From positions 1 through 22,849 of the IMG/VR virus record IMGVR_UViG_3300032323_000354: a DNA stretch of 22,849 nt. One strand, written 5' to 3'. The stretch comes from a virus. The notes beneath the pieces were generated by a model, which was not told where the DNA came from, did no database searches, and was given only the letters and a program-made list of their open reading frames with translations. Of this stretch, positions 6,865-17,486 are shown piece by piece. A program made the translations under genes and the position numbers. Position 1 is the first letter of the stretch. The number at the start of each line of letters is the position of its first letter.

Positions 6865-7241
6865 AACTCTCCCCCACAATGTTTACATGTATTTGTTTTT
6901 CTTTCGCTTGTTTCTCTGCCATTCACAAATGCTGGCAAGACATAGATTGAACAACGGTTCCGGCGCTCTTTTAATCGGGCAACCAAACCTTCTAAATGCA
7001 ATACAGATAAACAGCCTGATGACTGCCCCGCGTGCCAACCGTAGATTTCACCCAACTCTTTCCAAGTGAGTCCACGGATACCTGCCGCGCCTAGGGAAAC
7101 CAAAGTTTCTTTTTGACGCTTGCTTGTTGTGCCATCTGCGTCATCTTCAATAACGCGGTCACGGCTTGCCTCTGATCCTTTCCAACCAGAAGTTCCTGCA
7201 TACGGTGTTACAGGTAATGAAAAATCTAGTTCTTCATTCAC
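6861..7241 (-). CDS. Winged-helix DNA-binding protein with C-terminal CxxC
   Basis: GTG at 7241 overlaps the stop of the annealing-protein gene as GTGA. In the 126-residue product, residues 45-100 fit a MarR/GntR-type winged helix: a T-L-V-S-L-G helix, then L-T-W-K-E-L-G-E-I-Y-G-W, a recognition helix containing S-G-C-L-S-V-L-H-L-E-G-L-V, and a basic wing (R-L-K-E-R-R-N-R-C-S-I-Y-V). The last residues hold C-K-H-C-G, half of a zinc knuckle. The N-terminal 40 residues are acidic and look disordered. A role as an operon regulator or replication accessory is plausible from position alone. Confidence 0.75.
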   Translation of the reverse strand: MNEELDFSLPVTPYAGTSGWKGSEASRDRVIEDDADGTTSKRQKETLVSLGAAGIRGLTWKELGEIYGWHAGQSSGCLSVLHLEGLVARLKERRNRCSIYVLPAFVNGRETSERKTNTCKHCGGEL

Positions 7242-7807
7242 TTGAATTTCACCGCTTTCTTATTGATTACATCAAGAAGTGTTACACCATTTACCTTTGC
7301 TTCTAAAACATCTGCATTGGTACGGTAGATTTCTTTTAGTTCATCTTTAGTAACTGCGGCTTCTGCTTGTGCAATAGCGGCTGTTGCTAAACCAACTTCT
7401 GCATCAGAATAAACGCGTGTTTTAAGTACAGTTTTTTCTACTGGTTCAACGCGTGATGCTTTTTCCATGTCCTGACGGGTAGGGCGTGATGGCTTCTTAG
7501 TATTTGGATCAACACCAAGATACCCGGCAAGGCTCAACGCTCTGCCGCTTGCAGATGTAGATGCGTTTTCTAGTGCAGATGTTTTGTTGATGTGTGAACT
7601 GCCTACCATTTCTTCAGCAAAATCAACTGCCTTTAATACATCACCGTAAAACACTGATGCTTCAACAATGTATTGAAGCGGGCGTAATGTTTGCGGATCT
7701 CTAACAATGTCAATGATCCTTGTAATTATTCTTAGATCATCATGGTCTGCATGAGCGCGTTGTAATCTTTCTGCAACGGTTTCATAAGCATTTAGGTCAA
7801 ATGCCAT
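7238..7807 (-). CDS. Putative single-strand annealing (ERF/Sak3-like) protein
   Basis: This is the first gene of the DNA-metabolism operon, 189 residues, with GAAGG 8 nt before ATG 7807. The core (residues 25-95) is a mixed beta/alpha segment ending in S-A-L-E-N-A-S-T-S-A-S-G-R-A-L-S-L-A-G-Y. This resembles the E-T-S-A-x-G-R-A-L-x-x-x-G-Y signature of ERF/Rad52-type phage recombinases. The C-terminal half is charged and helical. Such proteins coat and pair single strands made by an exonuclease; the Cas4-like nuclease and RusA downstream would complete the pathway. The match rests on a single motif, so a single-strand binding or unrelated replication protein remains possible. Confidence 0.6.
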   Translation of the reverse strand: MAFDLNAYETVAERLQRAHADHDDLRIITRIIDIVRDPQTLRPLQYIVEASVFYGDVLKAVDFAEEMVGSSHINKTSALENASTSASGRALSLAGYLGVDPNTKKPSRPTRQDMEKASRVEPVEKTVLKTRVYSDAEVGLATAAIAQAEAAVTKDELKEIYRTNADVLEAKVNGVTLLDVINKKAVKFK

Positions 7808-7830
7808 AACTTATGCCTTCTTTCTTTTAT

Positions 7831-7886
7831 GAGCCTGCGGCTCTGGTCATGGGCAAAGTTACAGACCAGCACCGACAAATACAAGG
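7831..7886 (-). promoter_or_regulatory. Control region upstream of the annealing-protein operon
   Basis: In the 129 bp divergent gap, a minus-strand promoter is possible: -35 TTGTAT, 17 nt, -10 TAACTT (about 7886-7858, weak -10). It lies over an inverted repeat CTGGTC (7843-7848) / GACCAG (7864-7869). A 5 bp hairpin, GAGCC-TGC-GGCTC (7831-7843), follows in the leader before GAAGG. This repeats the hairpin-then-ribosome-binding-site layout of the other leaders. I see no convincing plus-strand promoter for the divergent gene. Confidence 0.4.
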
Positions 7887-7936
7887 ACCCAAGCATTACG
7901 GCGCGGCGTGAGAAGATAGGGTTCTAGGAGGGCTAA

Positions 7937-8470
7937 ATGACCACAATCATAGGTATTGAAAAGCCTGACGGCTGTTCCTTAGTTGCTGATAGCCGTGTCA
8001 CTGACCCTGCCGGCAGGATCTTTTCTCATTCTGCTGTAACCAAAATCAATAAGCGCGGTGCATTTTTGATAGCCGGGGCAGGTGAAGTTGTGCCTTGCGA
8101 CATTGCGCAACACATTTGGAACCCACCAGTTCTTACAGAAAAAGATAAAAAAGATGTTTACCATTTTATGATTGCAAAAGTTATGCCTTCTTTGCGAAAA
8201 AGTTTGATAGATAATGGCTACTCTTTTGATGACGCAGGGGAAAACCGGTTTAACTTTATTCTTGCAGTTAATGGAGAATTGTTTGACATAGATCAAGATT
8301 TGGCTGTGTGCAAAAATGATGACGGTATTTATGCCGTTGGCTCTGGCGCTGATTTTGCTATTGGTGCTTTACATGCAGGAGCCACACCTATGCAAGCCAT
8401 GGCGATAGCGGCAAAGGTTTCTGCCTATACCGCCCCGCCATTTGTAGAAAGATCACAAAAGCGTAATTAG
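7937..8470 (+). CDS. Proteasome beta/HslV-like Ntn hydrolase
   Basis: This is the only plus-strand gene, with AGGAGG 5 nt before ATG 7937. The 177-residue product starts M-T-T-I-I-G-I, so Thr2 would be the N-terminal nucleophile after Met removal. D18 in V-A-D-S-R matches proteasome Asp17. G47-A-G49 in L-I-A-G-A-G and A-V-G-S-G-A-D-F-A-I-G-A-L-H-A-G near residue 135 match the conserved late part of the fold. The usual active-site Lys33 is not at its expected place (Ser32 by my alignment); K36 is the nearest. Actinophages carry related short beta-subunit-like proteins of unknown role. It may degrade host or phage proteins, or be a non-proteolytic Ntn hydrolase. No ATPase partner is nearby. Confidence 0.85.
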   Translation: MTTIIGIEKPDGCSLVADSRVTDPAGRIFSHSAVTKINKRGAFLIAGAGEVVPCDIAQHIWNPPVLTEKDKKDVYHFMIAKVMPSLRKSLIDNGYSFDDAGENRFNFILAVNGELFDIDQDLAVCKNDDGIYAVGSGADFAIGALHAGATPMQAMAIAAKVSAYTAPPFVERSQKRN

Positions 8471-8640
8471 TTTGCTTGCAGTTTATGTTGTTTAAATTGT
8501 TCTTTGGCGCTTTTAATGGCTTCTGTTTTGTATCCGCGAGATTTAGGAAGATTGCGAAAAAAACTAAAATTACCACAAGTGCAATTAACGCTTACATAAA
8601 AAGCGCCAGTGCGACCTGTAATTTTAATTGTGTGTTGCAT
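8467..8640 (-). CDS. Small CxC protein, 57 aa, stop interlocked with convergent gene
   Basis: ATG 8640 overlaps the TAA of the upstream gene as TAATG, with GGAGG 7 nt upstream. The product has an N-terminal beta hairpin with N-C-T-C-G (about residues 19-23), then a basic helix (K-T-E-A-I-K-S-A-K-E-Q-F-K-Q-H-K). The order strand, C-x-C-G, basic stretch, helix ending in His resembles the C-terminal part of the 99-residue protein just upstream. Its TAA (8467-8469) overlaps the TAG of the convergent Ntn hydrolase gene. Function unknown; the C-x-C plus late His could hold zinc. Confidence 0.7.
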   Translation of the reverse strand: MQHTIKITGRTGAFYVSVNCTCGNFSFFRNLPKSRGYKTEAIKSAKEQFKQHKLQAN

Positions 8641-8939
8641 TAGTTTGCCTCCTGATTTGAACGGTGTGCTTCGATCTCTGCTAATAATTTTGCAAGGCGT
8701 GAATTTGGGCTAGGTGTGCTTGCAACCCATTCGTAATTGTGTTCGTGCCATTTGTGCGCTTCAACATCTCTTACAACTGCCGCCTTAATTGCTCCACCAG
8801 TTCTTGATTCCCAACCACATGAACATTTAACTTCCCAAGCGTTGTGAATAAAACCTTTGTTGTTACGCATTTTTGAACCATCATGCAAAACAGCAAACCA
8901 TTGAATTTGAACTTTCTCTGTTGTTGCTACTAACTTCAT
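8640..8939 (-). CDS. Small CxC protein (99 aa), putative zinc-binding
   Basis: The start is placed at the ATG at 8939, with GGAGG 7 nt upstream; a frame 17 codons longer would run through the leader repeat. A beta-rich N-terminus contains W-F-A-V-L-H-D-G, then W-E-V-K-C-S-C-G-W-E-S and a helix A-V-V-R-D-V-E-A-H-K-W-H-E-H. The C-x-C and the His cluster are likely metal ligands. The C-terminal tail is polar. It is the first gene after the promoter at 8984-9012 and is coupled to the 57-residue paralogue-like gene. Small proteins of this type are common in actinophages, but no function is known to me. Confidence 0.75.
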   Translation of the reverse strand: MKLVATTEKVQIQWFAVLHDGSKMRNNKGFIHNAWEVKCSCGWESRTGGAIKAAVVRDVEAHKWHEHNYEWVASTPSPNSRLAKLLAEIEAHRSNQEAN

Positions 8940-8942
8940 TTT

Positions 8943-8977
8943 CTTGCCTCCATGTCTTTGCCCCTTTGGGCTATGGC
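8943..8977 (-). repeat. Leader repeat copy 2
   Basis: Contains GCCATAGCCCAAAGGGGC (8977-8960) identical to 3439-3422, then ATGGAGGCAAG (8953-8943), identical to 3414-3404. The coding sequences downstream are unrelated, so the shared part is the leader itself. Confidence 0.75.
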
Positions 8978-8983
8978 AGAAGC

Positions 8984-9012
8984 GTAACACATTTCTGGCA
9001 GGTTTTGTGCAA
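8984..9012 (-). promoter_or_regulatory. Sigma70-like promoter, weak -10
   Basis: Minus strand -35 TTGCAC (9012-9007), 17 nt spacer, -10 TGTTAC (8989-8984). It is placed relative to leader repeat copy 2 much as the promoter at 3443-3472 is to copy 1. The 90 bp gap after the metallophosphoesterase gene supports a fresh transcript here. Confidence 0.4.
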
Positions 9013-9029
9013 CCTTTTATGGCAAGTTT

Positions 9030-10064
9030 CTAGTCCAGCCACACCTTATAGGCGGCTGTGACCCGCCCCTTTACGGGGTCTATGAAGTGCAGGCGTTGGC
9101 TAGGGGTGGCACTAGCCGCCAGCATAACCCCCGCATAGCGGTTATCTGACTCTGTGGAGCCTGTCTGGTACACCGACCCCTGCCCGTTCGCCATAGCCCA
9201 CTCTGCGTGGGTGTGGTAATGCCCTATGTACACATCACGGAAGTCCCAAGGGTAGGAACCGGATCGCCATTTGTTTGCGTGTTGAACTATCGCGCCGGGA
9301 GAAGCAAAGCCATTGCGCCCGACTTCATCACCATGAATTAAGAGCGCTTTGTAGTTTCCAATTTCTATGCGCTGAATGTCCTCCGGGCAGTCCTGCCATG
9401 TTAGGCGTTTTTCTCCTGCCAGTAATTGTTTTGCCAATTCATAACACATGCGGTCAAAGTTATCTGACCGTGGCACATTGTCGCGTTTAGATCCTATGCG
9501 CCCATGGTTTCCCCATTCAGGGACAACCGTAACTTTTTCATAATTGGCGAGCGCAAACCGCACCACATCTACACAAAGCCGGGACACATTTACATACTGT
9601 TCAAACAAGGTGCTATCAATTTCAAATGCTTGTGATGGAAAATTAAACAATCCTTCAACCATGTCACCGCCAAAAGCAATTGTTACTTCTTTAACCGGGT
9701 GATCTGCGCGTTGGATCTCTGTAATGCGTACAGCCTTTTCAGTAAATTCTAAAACGCGTTTGCGCATGATCTCACTGTTGTAAGTAACTGTGCGCTTTGC
9801 TCCTTGCCAATCTGTCATGTGCCATAAAGCAACTTCACTTTTGGCTTTGCGTTTATCAATAACAACATCTGGCACTTGTGGAATTTTGCCTAAAGTAAGC
9901 ATGGCATCATAGGCGGCTTGCTTAGTAGCAAACACAAGATCCTCATTGCGCTCTTTGCTTTGTTTTAATTGTTTCTGCAAACGCATCATTGCAGACCGTA
10001 ATTCTTTTACATCTTCTGTTTCTATACCTTCAGGCATTTCTTCTAAGCGTTTTTCAAGACTCAT
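9030..10064 (-). CDS. Calcineurin-like metallophosphoesterase (SbcD/Mre11-like)
   Basis: The 344-residue product begins with a coiled-coil region (1-60), then shows the metal-binding motifs of the family in order: D85-x-Q87 (T-D-W-Q), G-G-D134, G-N186-H187, H244-G-D and G-H282-Y-H284-T-H286. Gln in place of the usual His of the first motif is common among phage members. Related phage proteins are predicted DNA repair or end-processing phosphodiesterases. No SbcC/Rad50-like ATPase is in view, so it may act alone. Start ATG 10064 has GGAG 7 nt upstream and overlaps the preceding gene by 11 bp. Last gene before the promoter gap at 8940-9029. Confidence 0.88.
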   Translation of the reverse strand: MSLEKRLEEMPEGIETEDVKELRSAMMRLQKQLKQSKERNEDLVFATKQAAYDAMLTLGKIPQVPDVVIDKRKAKSEVALWHMTDWQGAKRTVTYNSEIMRKRVLEFTEKAVRITEIQRADHPVKEVTIAFGGDMVEGLFNFPSQAFEIDSTLFEQYVNVSRLCVDVVRFALANYEKVTVVPEWGNHGRIGSKRDNVPRSDNFDRMCYELAKQLLAGEKRLTWQDCPEDIQRIEIGNYKALLIHGDEVGRNGFASPGAIVQHANKWRSGSYPWDFRDVYIGHYHTHAEWAMANGQGSVYQTGSTESDNRYAGVMLAASATPSQRLHFIDPVKGRVTAAYKVWLD

Positions 10065-14358: not shown

Positions 14359-16857
14359 TTATACCGGGTAACGAACTATAACAATACCTGAACCGCCTGC
14401 TCGTGCGCTACTATTGCCAGTTCCATCTTGCGCACCACCGCCGCCACCTGTGTTTGCAGTTCCAGCAACAGGAGCAACAGTTGGAGTTCCACCATTTCCA
14501 CCGCCACCTTTTTGTGCAGTAGTTGATGTTCCACCACCTAGCCCTGCTACTCTATCTGATCCAGCAGAGTTAGTTCCTCCACCGCCTCCACCTGCATAAT
14601 AAACTGATGAACCTGTTATTGAATTTGCAGTTGCAATACCACCATTACCACCAAACTGAGTTGTAGCACCTGTTTCACCATCACCACTTGAACCACCACC
14701 ACCGCCTGAACCTGATGAACCAGTTGTTCCTGCACCAGCGTAACCTTCTACTGGTGAATACGAACCTGCGTTACCTGCACCACCTGAACTGCTTGAATTA
14801 GAACGAGAACCACCACCTGAACCACCGCTTTGACCAGCATTAGTGCCGGGATTACTACCACCACCGCCACCGCCTGAAGAATTTGTAGAGCCAAAAGTTG
14901 AGGTTCCACCCGCACCACCTCTATTTCCGCTACTTCCACCTACACCACCTGCTCCAATAGTGACTGTGTAATTTGTAGAAGCAGTTAAAGATTGAGAAGT
15001 TAAATAACGATAGCCACCAGCACCGCCACCGCCTCCTGCTTCGTGACCACCGCCACCACCACCAGCAACTACTAAATAATCAGCAGTTAAGTTTTCAGTT
15101 GGAGTAAATGTTCCTGAACTTGTAAATGTATGAACCCAATGAGTTCCAGTATTAGTAACTGTTCCACCAAATGCTTTAGCAGGCGTGTAGCGAACAACTA
15201 CAATTCCAGAACCGCCATTACCGCCATTGTTTGCACCATCTGTTCCACCACCGCCACCACCGCCGCTGTTGGCAGTTCCAGCAGTTCCAGAACTTCCAAA
15301 TGTTCCGCCGCCGCCGCCGCCGCCGTTGCCGCCTGTTCCGGGATCAACGCCACCACCGCCACCACCACCACCGCCAGCATAAAATGTTGCTGTTCCAGAA
15401 ATGTCAAAAGCAAGACCTACGCCACCATTTCCAGCCTGTCCAGAATTATTTTGTACTGCATTTTGACCAACAGCACCAGCACCGCCCCCGCCGCCGCCTT
15501 TGTATTGCGCTCCAGTTCCACGCCAACCTAAACCACCATTAGAACCAAAACCAGTTAAACCGCCAGAATTGCCTTGATTTGCTGAACCTCCCGCACCAGA
15601 TGAACCAGAAGATGCCCCCATGGCTCCGCCACCACCAGAACCACCATTTGCACCTGTAATGTTTCCAGACCAACCACCGCCACCGCCACCGCCGTTAGCA
15701 GTGCTAGTACCAAAAACAGAATTAACTCCATTTGTTCCTTTTGTTGAACTAGAAGTTGCACCAGCGCCTCCGCCACCAACTTCAACTGTGTATGCAGTTG
15801 GAGTTAATGATAAAACTCCATTTAATAAACCGCCACCGCCACCACCGCCGCCGTATTCTTCACCACCACCAGCACCACCAGCAACAACAAGCACCTCTGC
15901 ACTAAAACTTGATGACGGTGTAAATGTGCCTGATGAAGTAAATGTGTGAATAAAAGAATAATTAGCAAATGTGATTGTTCCACCTGTTGCTTGTGGCATA
16001 CCTGTGTAGAAATCACCTGAAGAATTAAATGTGTGGATTGTGTTTCCACCTGAAGTAGTTACTGTTCCGCCAAATGCTTTTTGTGTAGTGCCTGAGTAAC
16101 GGGCTATAACAATTCCTGATCCACCTGCGCTAGAAGTACTAGCATAAGCACCACCACCACCACCACCAGTATTTGTTCCTCCAGCAGTTCCAGTTTGCGT
16201 TCCAGCATCACCACCTGCGCCTCCACCACCTGCGCCACCTGCGCCACCTGAACCAGTATTTGTTGCTCCGCCAGCACCGCCAGCATAAGTAATTGATGAA
16301 CCAGTTATAGAGTTAGCCGTTCCTGCGCCACCTGCTCCGCCACCGCTTCCACTTCCAGCAAAACCATCTTGACTTGCACCACCGCCACCACCTGCGCCAA
16401 AACCGCTTGAAGTATTACTTCCGTTACCACCAGCAAAACCTTCTACTGGAGTAAAGCCACCTTGATTACCTGCTCCGCCAGCACCAGATAAACCATTTCC
16501 TGAACCACCGCCACCACCTGAACCACCTGTTGCACCAACATCACCGCCAGTATCGTTTCCTCTACCACCACCACCTCCACCAGTTGATGTGATACTGCTA
16601 AACACTGAATTATTGCCTTTTAAACCTTGACCTTCAGTTGTTCTACCAGCACCGCCAGCACCAACAGTTATTGGATAAAGAGTATTTAAAGATAAAGTTA
16701 AAGGAGTACCACTGATAGATGTGCGATAACCACCAGCACCTCCACCACCACCACGCCCTTTAGAGCCGCCGCCACCACCGCCAGCAACAACAAGGTAATC
16801 AACAATTAAATTTTGTTGAATAAATTTACTAGACGCAATAATTCCAAGAATAGGCAT
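14359..16857 (-). CDS. Glycine-rich tri-modular tail adhesin
   Basis: The start is ATG 16857 (TAATG overlap, GGAG upstream); an earlier start would run into the previous gene. The 832-residue product has three glycine-rich modules, at about 17-250, 317-555 and 588-832. Each opens with L-V-V-A-G-G-x-G-G-G, carries Y-x-V-x-V/I-G-x-G-G, A-N-S-I-T-G-S-S (modules 1 and 3), many runs of four to eight Gly, and closes with G-S-G-I-V-x-x-R-Y. Linkers repeat G-G-T-V/I-T...H-T-F-x-S-S-G. Glycine-rich phage adhesins, such as the gp38 type of T4-like phages, stack polyglycine helices and present variable loops to receptors. The tandem modules invite recombination. Host-range determinant is inferred. Confidence 0.8.
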   Translation of the reverse strand: MPILGIIASSKFIQQNLIVDYLVVAGGGGGGSKGRGGGGGAGGYRTSISGTPLTLSLNTLYPITVGAGGAGRTTEGQGLKGNNSVFSSITSTGGGGGGRGNDTGGDVGATGGSGGGGGSGNGLSGAGGAGNQGGFTPVEGFAGGNGSNTSSGFGAGGGGGASQDGFAGSGSGGGAGGAGTANSITGSSITYAGGAGGATNTGSGGAGGAGGGGAGGDAGTQTGTAGGTNTGGGGGGAYASTSSAGGSGIVIARYSGTTQKAFGGTVTTSGGNTIHTFNSSGDFYTGMPQATGGTITFANYSFIHTFTSSGTFTPSSSFSAEVLVVAGGAGGGEEYGGGGGGGGLLNGVLSLTPTAYTVEVGGGGAGATSSSTKGTNGVNSVFGTSTANGGGGGGGWSGNITGANGGSGGGGAMGASSGSSGAGGSANQGNSGGLTGFGSNGGLGWRGTGAQYKGGGGGGAGAVGQNAVQNNSGQAGNGGVGLAFDISGTATFYAGGGGGGGGGVDPGTGGNGGGGGGGTFGSSGTAGTANSGGGGGGGTDGANNGGNGGSGIVVVRYTPAKAFGGTVTNTGTHWVHTFTSSGTFTPTENLTADYLVVAGGGGGGHEAGGGGGAGGYRYLTSQSLTASTNYTVTIGAGGVGGSSGNRGGAGGTSTFGSTNSSGGGGGGSNPGTNAGQSGGSGGGSRSNSSSSGGAGNAGSYSPVEGYAGAGTTGSSGSGGGGGSSGDGETGATTQFGGNGGIATANSITGSSVYYAGGGGGGTNSAGSDRVAGLGGGTSTTAQKGGGGNGGTPTVAPVAGTANTGGGGGAQDGTGNSSARAGGSGIVIVRYPV

Positions 16858-17486
16858 TAAGAAACATCTCCAAACACATACCAAAGATCAGTTCCGGCTT
16901 TAAGACAAGTTGCCGCGCTGTAACGCGCTCTAAGTTTTGGAGCCGCCGCAGTTCCACCAGTTGATAAAATACTTGTTGTGCCGCTTGTTACGGCTTGAAT
17001 AGTTGTTTGTCCTGTACCAATTTGAAGCACATTTATTTGTGTACCAATTGGAAACGCAACTGAAGCATTTGTAGGAATAGAAAAAGTATTTGCAGAAGAA
17101 TTATCCATGGTTACTACTTGCCCATTGTTGGCAAGAACAGCCGTAAAAGAAGCGGTTTCTGCGTCAAACGCAAGATTTATTTTAGGATCTGTCAGCGTTT
17201 TATTAGTTAAAGTTTGTGTGCCTGTAAGAGTTGCAACGGTAGAATCAATTGCAATAGTTCCGGTTGTAGTTATTGTTCCACCAGAAAGACCAGTACCAGC
17301 AGTAATGCTTGTGACTGTTCCGGCTCCTGTGTACCCCAAAGAGTTCCAAACAGTTGATCCGTTGCCAATTTTTACTTTGCCTGTATCGCTTTCAAAACCC
17401 CATTCACCTGAAGCAAGTGTTGGGTTGGCAGAAGTCCATTGGGAGGCTGTGCCACGGCGTACTTGAATTTGTGTAACTACACTCAT
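16857..17486 (-). CDS. Tail fibre protein with tropism-type N-terminal repeat
   Basis: ATG 17486 overlaps the upstream stop as ATGA. The 209-residue product begins Q-I-Q-V-R-R-G-T-A-S-Q-W with L-A-S-G-E-W-G-F-E-S-D-T-G-K-V-K-I-G-N-G, the N-terminal attachment module known from major tropism determinant and other fibre proteins. T-Q-T-L-T-N-K-T-L-T-D-P (about 89-100) follows, and a beta-rich C-terminal half resembles the end of the 327-residue protein at 17734-18717. It probably forms part of the same trimeric fibre or side appendage as the neighbouring proteins. Confidence 0.8.
   Translation of the reverse strand: MSVVTQIQVRRGTASQWTSANPTLASGEWGFESDTGKVKIGNGSTVWNSLGYTGAGTVTSITAGTGLSGGTITTTGTIAIDSTVATLTGTQTLTNKTLTDPKINLAFDAETASFTAVLANNGQVVTMDNSSANTFSIPTNASVAFPIGTQINVLQIGTGQTTIQAVTSGTTSILSTGGTAAAPKLRARYSAATCLKAGTDLWYVFGDVS

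Follow-up and report, generated by a model that had tools for sequence, protein, structure and literature searches.

The inverted gene and its surroundings

The window, by which is meant the whole 22,849-base stretch analyzed, is a virus record (IMGVR_UViG_3300032323_000354) and a fragment. Genes for a tape measure protein, Dit, an endolysin, RusA, a replication initiator and WhiB were recognizable, identifying it as a long-tailed phage. The minus strand carries about 40 genes and the plus strand a single one, at 7937-8470, bearing out the description of a lone plus-strand gene with a strong ribosome-binding site in the initial annotation. The locus contains the following features:

7238..7807, minus strand: left neighbor, phrog_11717, with a weak match to the RecT protein of L056 (E 2e-4)
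7808..7936, no strand assigned: intergenic region from the divergent gene 7238-7807 to the peptidase gene, similar in L001-L003
7926..7932, plus strand: ribosome-binding site by sequence, AGGAGGG, 4 to 10 bases 5' of the ATG
7937..8470, plus strand: predicted proteasome/HslV-type Ntn hydrolase gene, 177 amino acids (aa), without propeptide, Met-Thr start
9030..10064, minus strand: right-hand conserved neighbor, exonuclease/phosphoesterase, phrog_284, 63% identical in L056

The reading frame of the inverted gene opens with Met-Thr-Thr and encodes 177 aa without a stop; at the composition of the window, the chance of an open run this long is approximately 7e-5 per start. A moron-type accessory gene would be expected to have its own promoter and terminator. 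The gene here is inverted and has a strong ribosome-binding site; no match to a sigma-70-type promoter was found near it, 7808-7936 included, nor was a terminator match found 3' of it. The product of the left neighbor may be distantly related to RecT-type annealing proteins, judging from sequence similarity. No nucleotide match to the region 7238-10064 was found in the phage records searched.

On the minus strand at 8467-8640, a convergent 57-aa ORF encodes a CTC (Cys-x-Cys) motif and overlaps the stop of the peptidase gene by 4 bases; it is left out of the ORF list, which has a default cut of 60 aa. Elsewhere in the window (14359-16884, minus strand), an 841-aa protein built from glycine-rich repeats (DYLVVAGGGGGG...) has similar glycine-rich counterparts in Planktophila phage F5 (L202:157-1890).

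Fold, active site and selection

Using a profile search, residues 1 to 171 of the window peptidase were matched to PHROG 1040, 'peptidase HslV family' (E 9.6e-27), in agreement with the Ntn-hydrolase identity first proposed. The match to Pfam Proteasome (PF00227) was weak (E 7e-4), its 19.7 bits lying under the curated cut-off of 22.4 bits. A score of 18.1 bits against the NCBIfam cut-off of 157.75 for TIGR03692 (HslV) places the protein outside HslV proper, and 26.1 bits against 224 for TIGR03634 (20S proteasome beta subunit), together with the missing propeptide, places it outside the beta subunits. An AlphaFold (AF2) model of the monomer, with a 38-sequence alignment as input, has a mean pLDDT of 93.3 and helices at residues 51-60 and 74-92. 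When this model was used in a structure search, 1026 PDB chains were matched at E<=0.001 with Z up to 18.9, the top matches being BPH (Betaproteobacteria proteasome homologue; Z 18.9), the proteasome beta subunit of S. acidocaldarius (18.3) and HslV (18.0), over about 160 residues. Within the limits of prediction, the Ntn/proteasome fold is secure.

Relatives of the window peptidase in IMG/VR comprised 29 close ones, with more than 560 detected, and tblastn matched the protein to 99 isolated phage records, with 28 to 42% identity among the matches listed. Arthrobacter phage Hum25 (gp81) and Microbacterium phage Pumpernickel (gp135) are examples of phages carrying a related gene. With L035 as the query, viral relatives were not found. 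A search of bacterial genomes with the close-family alignment found no relatives of the gene, and the alignment of more distant family members was too diverse for scanning. The bacterial relatives are mostly rhizobial, with two in Streptomyces. On a Sinorhizobium plasmid (L199:4001-4546), a distant homologue annotated only as hypothetical lies between nifQ and nifS-type genes, and several rhizobial plasmids carry genes similar to it.

The active-site positions were compared across 185 aligned family members (all codons on the plus strand):

7940..7942: codon for Thr2, the predicted N-terminal nucleophile after Met removal (mature Thr1), invariant in 185/185
7988..7990: codon for Asp18 (proteasome Asp17), invariant in 185/185
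8042..8044: codon for Lys36 (aligned to proteasome Lys33 and BPH Lys37), invariant in 185/185, with a Lys-to-Gly spacing of 13 in all
8081..8083: codon for Gly49 (aligned to the oxyanion-hole Gly47 of the proteasome and Gly50 of BPH), invariant in 185/185
8342..8344: codon for Ser136 in GSG (proteasome Ser129), with S in 150, T in 33 and A in 2 of 185

Thr2, Thr3 and Asp18 are present as the initial annotation described; family conservation, which it had left to be checked, proved complete for Thr2 and Asp18, and Thr3 is likewise invariant. The displaced active-site lysine that it proposed was rejected. Lys36 occurs in every family member, phmmer pairs it directly with Lys33 of the S. acidocaldarius beta subunit, and it stands 13 residues before the glycine, as in BPH. 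The BPH structure solved with epoxomicin bound has its lysine at Lys37 and its oxyanion glycine at Gly50 (PMC5777263), a lysine even further along than Lys36. By alignment, Lys36 does not just happen to lie closest to the expected place; it corresponds to proteasome Lys33 and never varies in the family. The Asp-to-Lys spacing is 17, 18 or 19 within the family; the length of the Asp-Lys hairpin simply varies from one proteasome relative to another.

In the proteasome the triad is Thr1-Lys33-Asp17, Asp166 and Ser129 protonate the Thr1 amine, and replacing Asp166 by Asn in yeast beta5 lowers activity drastically (PMC4792962). The Asp166 position appears to correspond to Ser162 in the window peptidase and is S, T, N or D across the family. 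HslV and BPH likewise vary here in the profile alignment, so the second-shell Ser162, the sole real deviation found, is not treated as evidence of inactivity.

Comparison of the window gene with its four nearest relatives gave dN/dS values of 0.107 to 0.128, and values among those four were 0.055 to 0.087. With Thr2, Asp18, Lys36 and Gly49 invariant and dN/dS about 0.1, a dead copy or dead decoy is very unlikely. A further suggestion was that the protein may mimic the host proteasome as a non-catalytic decoy, and a small subunit with a proteasome-like fold would suit such a role. However, every catalytic residue is invariant and under purifying selection, and 79 of 81 genomes sampled from the likely host order have no proteasome to be mimicked, leaving this suggestion with hardly any probability.

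Genomic positions and likely hosts

The position of the peptidase gene was determined in 184 relatives, of which 152 carry it directly after the portal gene, 11 inverted and 20 elsewhere, with one partial. In the portal slot, the gene is on the same strand as the portal gene, typically 17 to 42 bases away, and a GGAGG/AGGGG-type site precedes it in 135 of the 152. In the 11 inverted relatives (12 with the window), the gene is flanked by a RecT/annealing-type gene on one side and an exonuclease gene on the other, the arrangement also seen in the window; the other slots include sites after the endolysin gene and near early genes. In a tree of 65 proteins the inverted-context members clustered, yet at least two origins are needed. 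The lone inverted gene is thus a feature of this and a few other lineages and fails as a general trait, since most relatives are codirectional beside the portal; its position in the window is a lineage-specific relocation. In L040, L056, L105 and L115, a 66-aa gene (MAFSSIEIRLGGL...) lies on the same strand directly 5' of the inverted peptidase gene, its stop overlapping or nearly overlapping the peptidase start; the L056 copy had no Pfam match.

Exactly one copy of the peptidase gene was present in each of the 19 records examined. At 79 readable loci with an 84 to 97% identical portal, the gene was present in 68 and absent from 11, and in 10 of these 11 a 73- to 79-aa frame of one recognizable family fills the slot. 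This conserved protein, which has an acidic tail and lies directly after the portal (L220, L221, L226, L230, L231, L241, L248 and L264-L266), gave no Pfam match for the one copy tested. On nine of the 11 peptidase-less contigs, several of them near 40 kb, the gene was sought elsewhere and none was found. Given these absences, the several slots and the single copy, the peptidase gene is a dispensable, relocatable accessory gene, and its product most likely works in trans.

The predominant slot, between the portal gene and the remaining head module, is the usual one for a capsid maturation protease, and a head-morphogenesis (prohead) protease that processes scaffold or portal was considered on that basis. 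In phage F5, terminase is followed by two small genes, the portal and peptidase genes, three further small genes and the gene for a 1711-aa protein; next come two more genes, a scaffold-like gene and the major capsid protein gene. The ORFs scanned from terminase to major capsid protein (L202:7947-22031) matched no protease family besides that of the peptidase, consistent with such a role for it. Against it, the gene is missing from closely related portal loci, a remotely homologous terminase-portal module (contig G003) has none beside its portal and carries its copy in the inverted slot, and other phages place it after the endolysin gene or near early genes. Capsids without a maturation protease also exist. 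As the gene is not a fixed, indispensable part of the head module (11/79 absences and unrelated slots), a dedicated prohead protease was lowered to a rather improbable reading.

The window and phage F5 share the HslV-type gene, WhiB, a transglycosylase and two small proteins (37 to 48% identity), and the window endolysin is 69% identical to that of viral contig L055. On the strength of these similarities, the host of the window phage is probably a freshwater actinobacterium related to "Ca. Planktophila." In four genomes from the order of "Ca. Planktophila," HslU and the proteasomal ATPase Mpa/ARC were below cut-off in all four and ClpX was present in all four. Two larger host-order genomes, of 1.8 to 1.9 Mb (G063 and G088; L291 and L292), carry an adjacent pair of proteasome-type subunits, and the other 79 sampled carry none. 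PHROG 1040 matches were obtained in 5 of 201 host-order genomes, as frames of 268 to 416 aa; these are most likely proteasome subunits, as two of them coincide with the subunits in the two proteasome-bearing genomes. In the genome located by a 16S signature, which we take to be that of LanE-43, the host of phages E7 and F5, no proteasome, HslU or proteasomal ATPase was detected.

No ClpX/HslU-type AAA+ domain (AAA_2, PF07724) was found in the window or 11 related records, some of these 12 being fragments, which fits the earlier remark that no regulatory ATPase is nearby. Given the 79 of 81 host-order genomes without a proteasome, the four with HslU and Mpa/ARC below cut-off and the 12 phage records without such a domain, a proteasome decoy and a partnership with HslU or Mpa/ARC are unlikely. 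The initial annotation also held that the protein may borrow a host unfoldase; the four genomes give no support to this for HslU and Mpa/ARC, and ClpX-type partners remain. HslV itself depends on an unfoldase partner, and with ClpX in all four genomes the peptidase could borrow ClpX, ClpC or FtsH and redirect it to phage-chosen substrates. Neither of the cognate partners, HslU and the proteasomal ATPase, was detected in those genomes, however, and the proteasome homologues already described have no co-occurring AAA+ genes (PMC8665760), so that borrowing of a host AAA+ unfoldase is considered unlikely, while retaining some chance of being correct.

Proposed function and known systems

The reading preferred here, with a probability of roughly 60%, is that the accessory gene encodes a proteasome-like peptidase of the HslV/BPH group that is catalytically competent, stands alone and acts in trans, its activity being suggested by anatomy, conservation and setting. 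The initiator Met would be removed to expose Thr1, the hydroxyl of which would be activated by Lys35 and Asp17 (mature numbering), with Gly48 forming the oxyanion hole by homology with solved structures. The subunits probably assemble into a double ring, a particle that would need no AAA+ partner of its own to cleave peptides or proteins with a loose fold and would act in trans while the phage infects proteasome-poor actinobacteria. Candidate substrates are host or defense proteins, or peptides for amino acid supply. The gene would be kept by selection at one copy per genome and shifted among several slots in related freshwater phages; in this lineage it stands alone and inverted, preceded by its own ribosome-binding site, with an annealing-protein-like gene on one side and an exonuclease gene on the other.

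Tentatively, this may extend to freshwater actinophages in general, which would on a wide scale bring a stand-alone proteasome-type particle, independent of any ATPase, into hosts without proteasome and HslUV; the slots would be interchangeable since the particle acts in trans, for example, clearing defense proteins or freeing amino acids. The papers found assign no function to phage proteasome homologues, and here a large, well-conserved group is linked to phage-host pairs in culture (E7 and F5 on "Ca. Planktophila" LanE-43). Given these pairs and a host genome in which no proteasome, HslU or proteasomal ATPase was detected, it is directly testable whether such a peptidase works without its own unfoldase. 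The literature search yielded no paper that connects HslV with freshwater actinophages.

BPH (PDB 5ovt, 5ovs and 5ovu) has the same fold as the window peptidase (rmsd 2.6 over 164 residues) and likewise has a Thr after the Met, Asp17, a late-placed Lys and the 13-residue Lys-to-Gly spacing; for neither is an unfoldase partner known. The two share 18 to 23% identity, the Thr1-Lys spacing is two residues shorter in the window peptidase, and the BPH gene is bacterial whereas the window gene is phage borne. BPH forms a double ring of 14 subunits, with a pore loop that is long and acidic. It showed no activity toward standard substrates in vitro, though inhibitors bound (PMC5777263). Because this nearest solved relative was inert, by analogy the window peptidase may need a cofactor. 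The lack of BPH protease activity in vitro (PMC5777263), the wide diversification of Ntn hydrolases and the ligase activity of monomeric connectase (PMC8665760) would also suit a specialized amidase, ligase or peptide-transferring enzyme like connectase in place of a protease. The AF2 model has no connectase-type S3/S4 helical insertion, however, and the nearest folds are ring-forming proteases, so that such an enzyme would come as a surprise. HslV (ClpQ), the peptidase subunit of HslVU, resembles the window peptidase in fold, compact subunit and Thr-Asp-Lys triad but differs in having HslU as its partner, of which none was found in the phage records or examined hosts.

Phage-borne proteasome homologues termed PPH, AAH and CPH were described by Fuchs, Alva and Lupas in 2021, with no known function, consistent gene neighbors or AAA+ partner (PMC8665760). 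The window peptidase resembles them in being phage borne, HslV related and compact, without a co-occurring AAA+ partner. It falls outside PPH, which is about 140 aa and has no helix H2 (PMC8665760), as it is 177 aa long with the second helix in place. It could be an AAH, a group with sequences from alphaproteobacteria and actinobacteria: its rhizobial and Streptomyces relatives fit the AAH range, but AAH was not found in actinobacteria-specific phages (PMC8665760). The cultured Planktophila phages LanE43AprE7 and LanE43AprF5 (OX376640 and OX376641), phages of "Ca. Nanopelagicales" (PMC10202952), carry a 41 to 42% identical gene; their copy is codirectional and directly after the portal in genomes that are otherwise mostly different, whereas the window copy is inverted. 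The window peptidase belongs to the family of phage proteasome homologues already described in 2021, and this family moves between phages whose likely hosts are mostly without a proteasome of their own.
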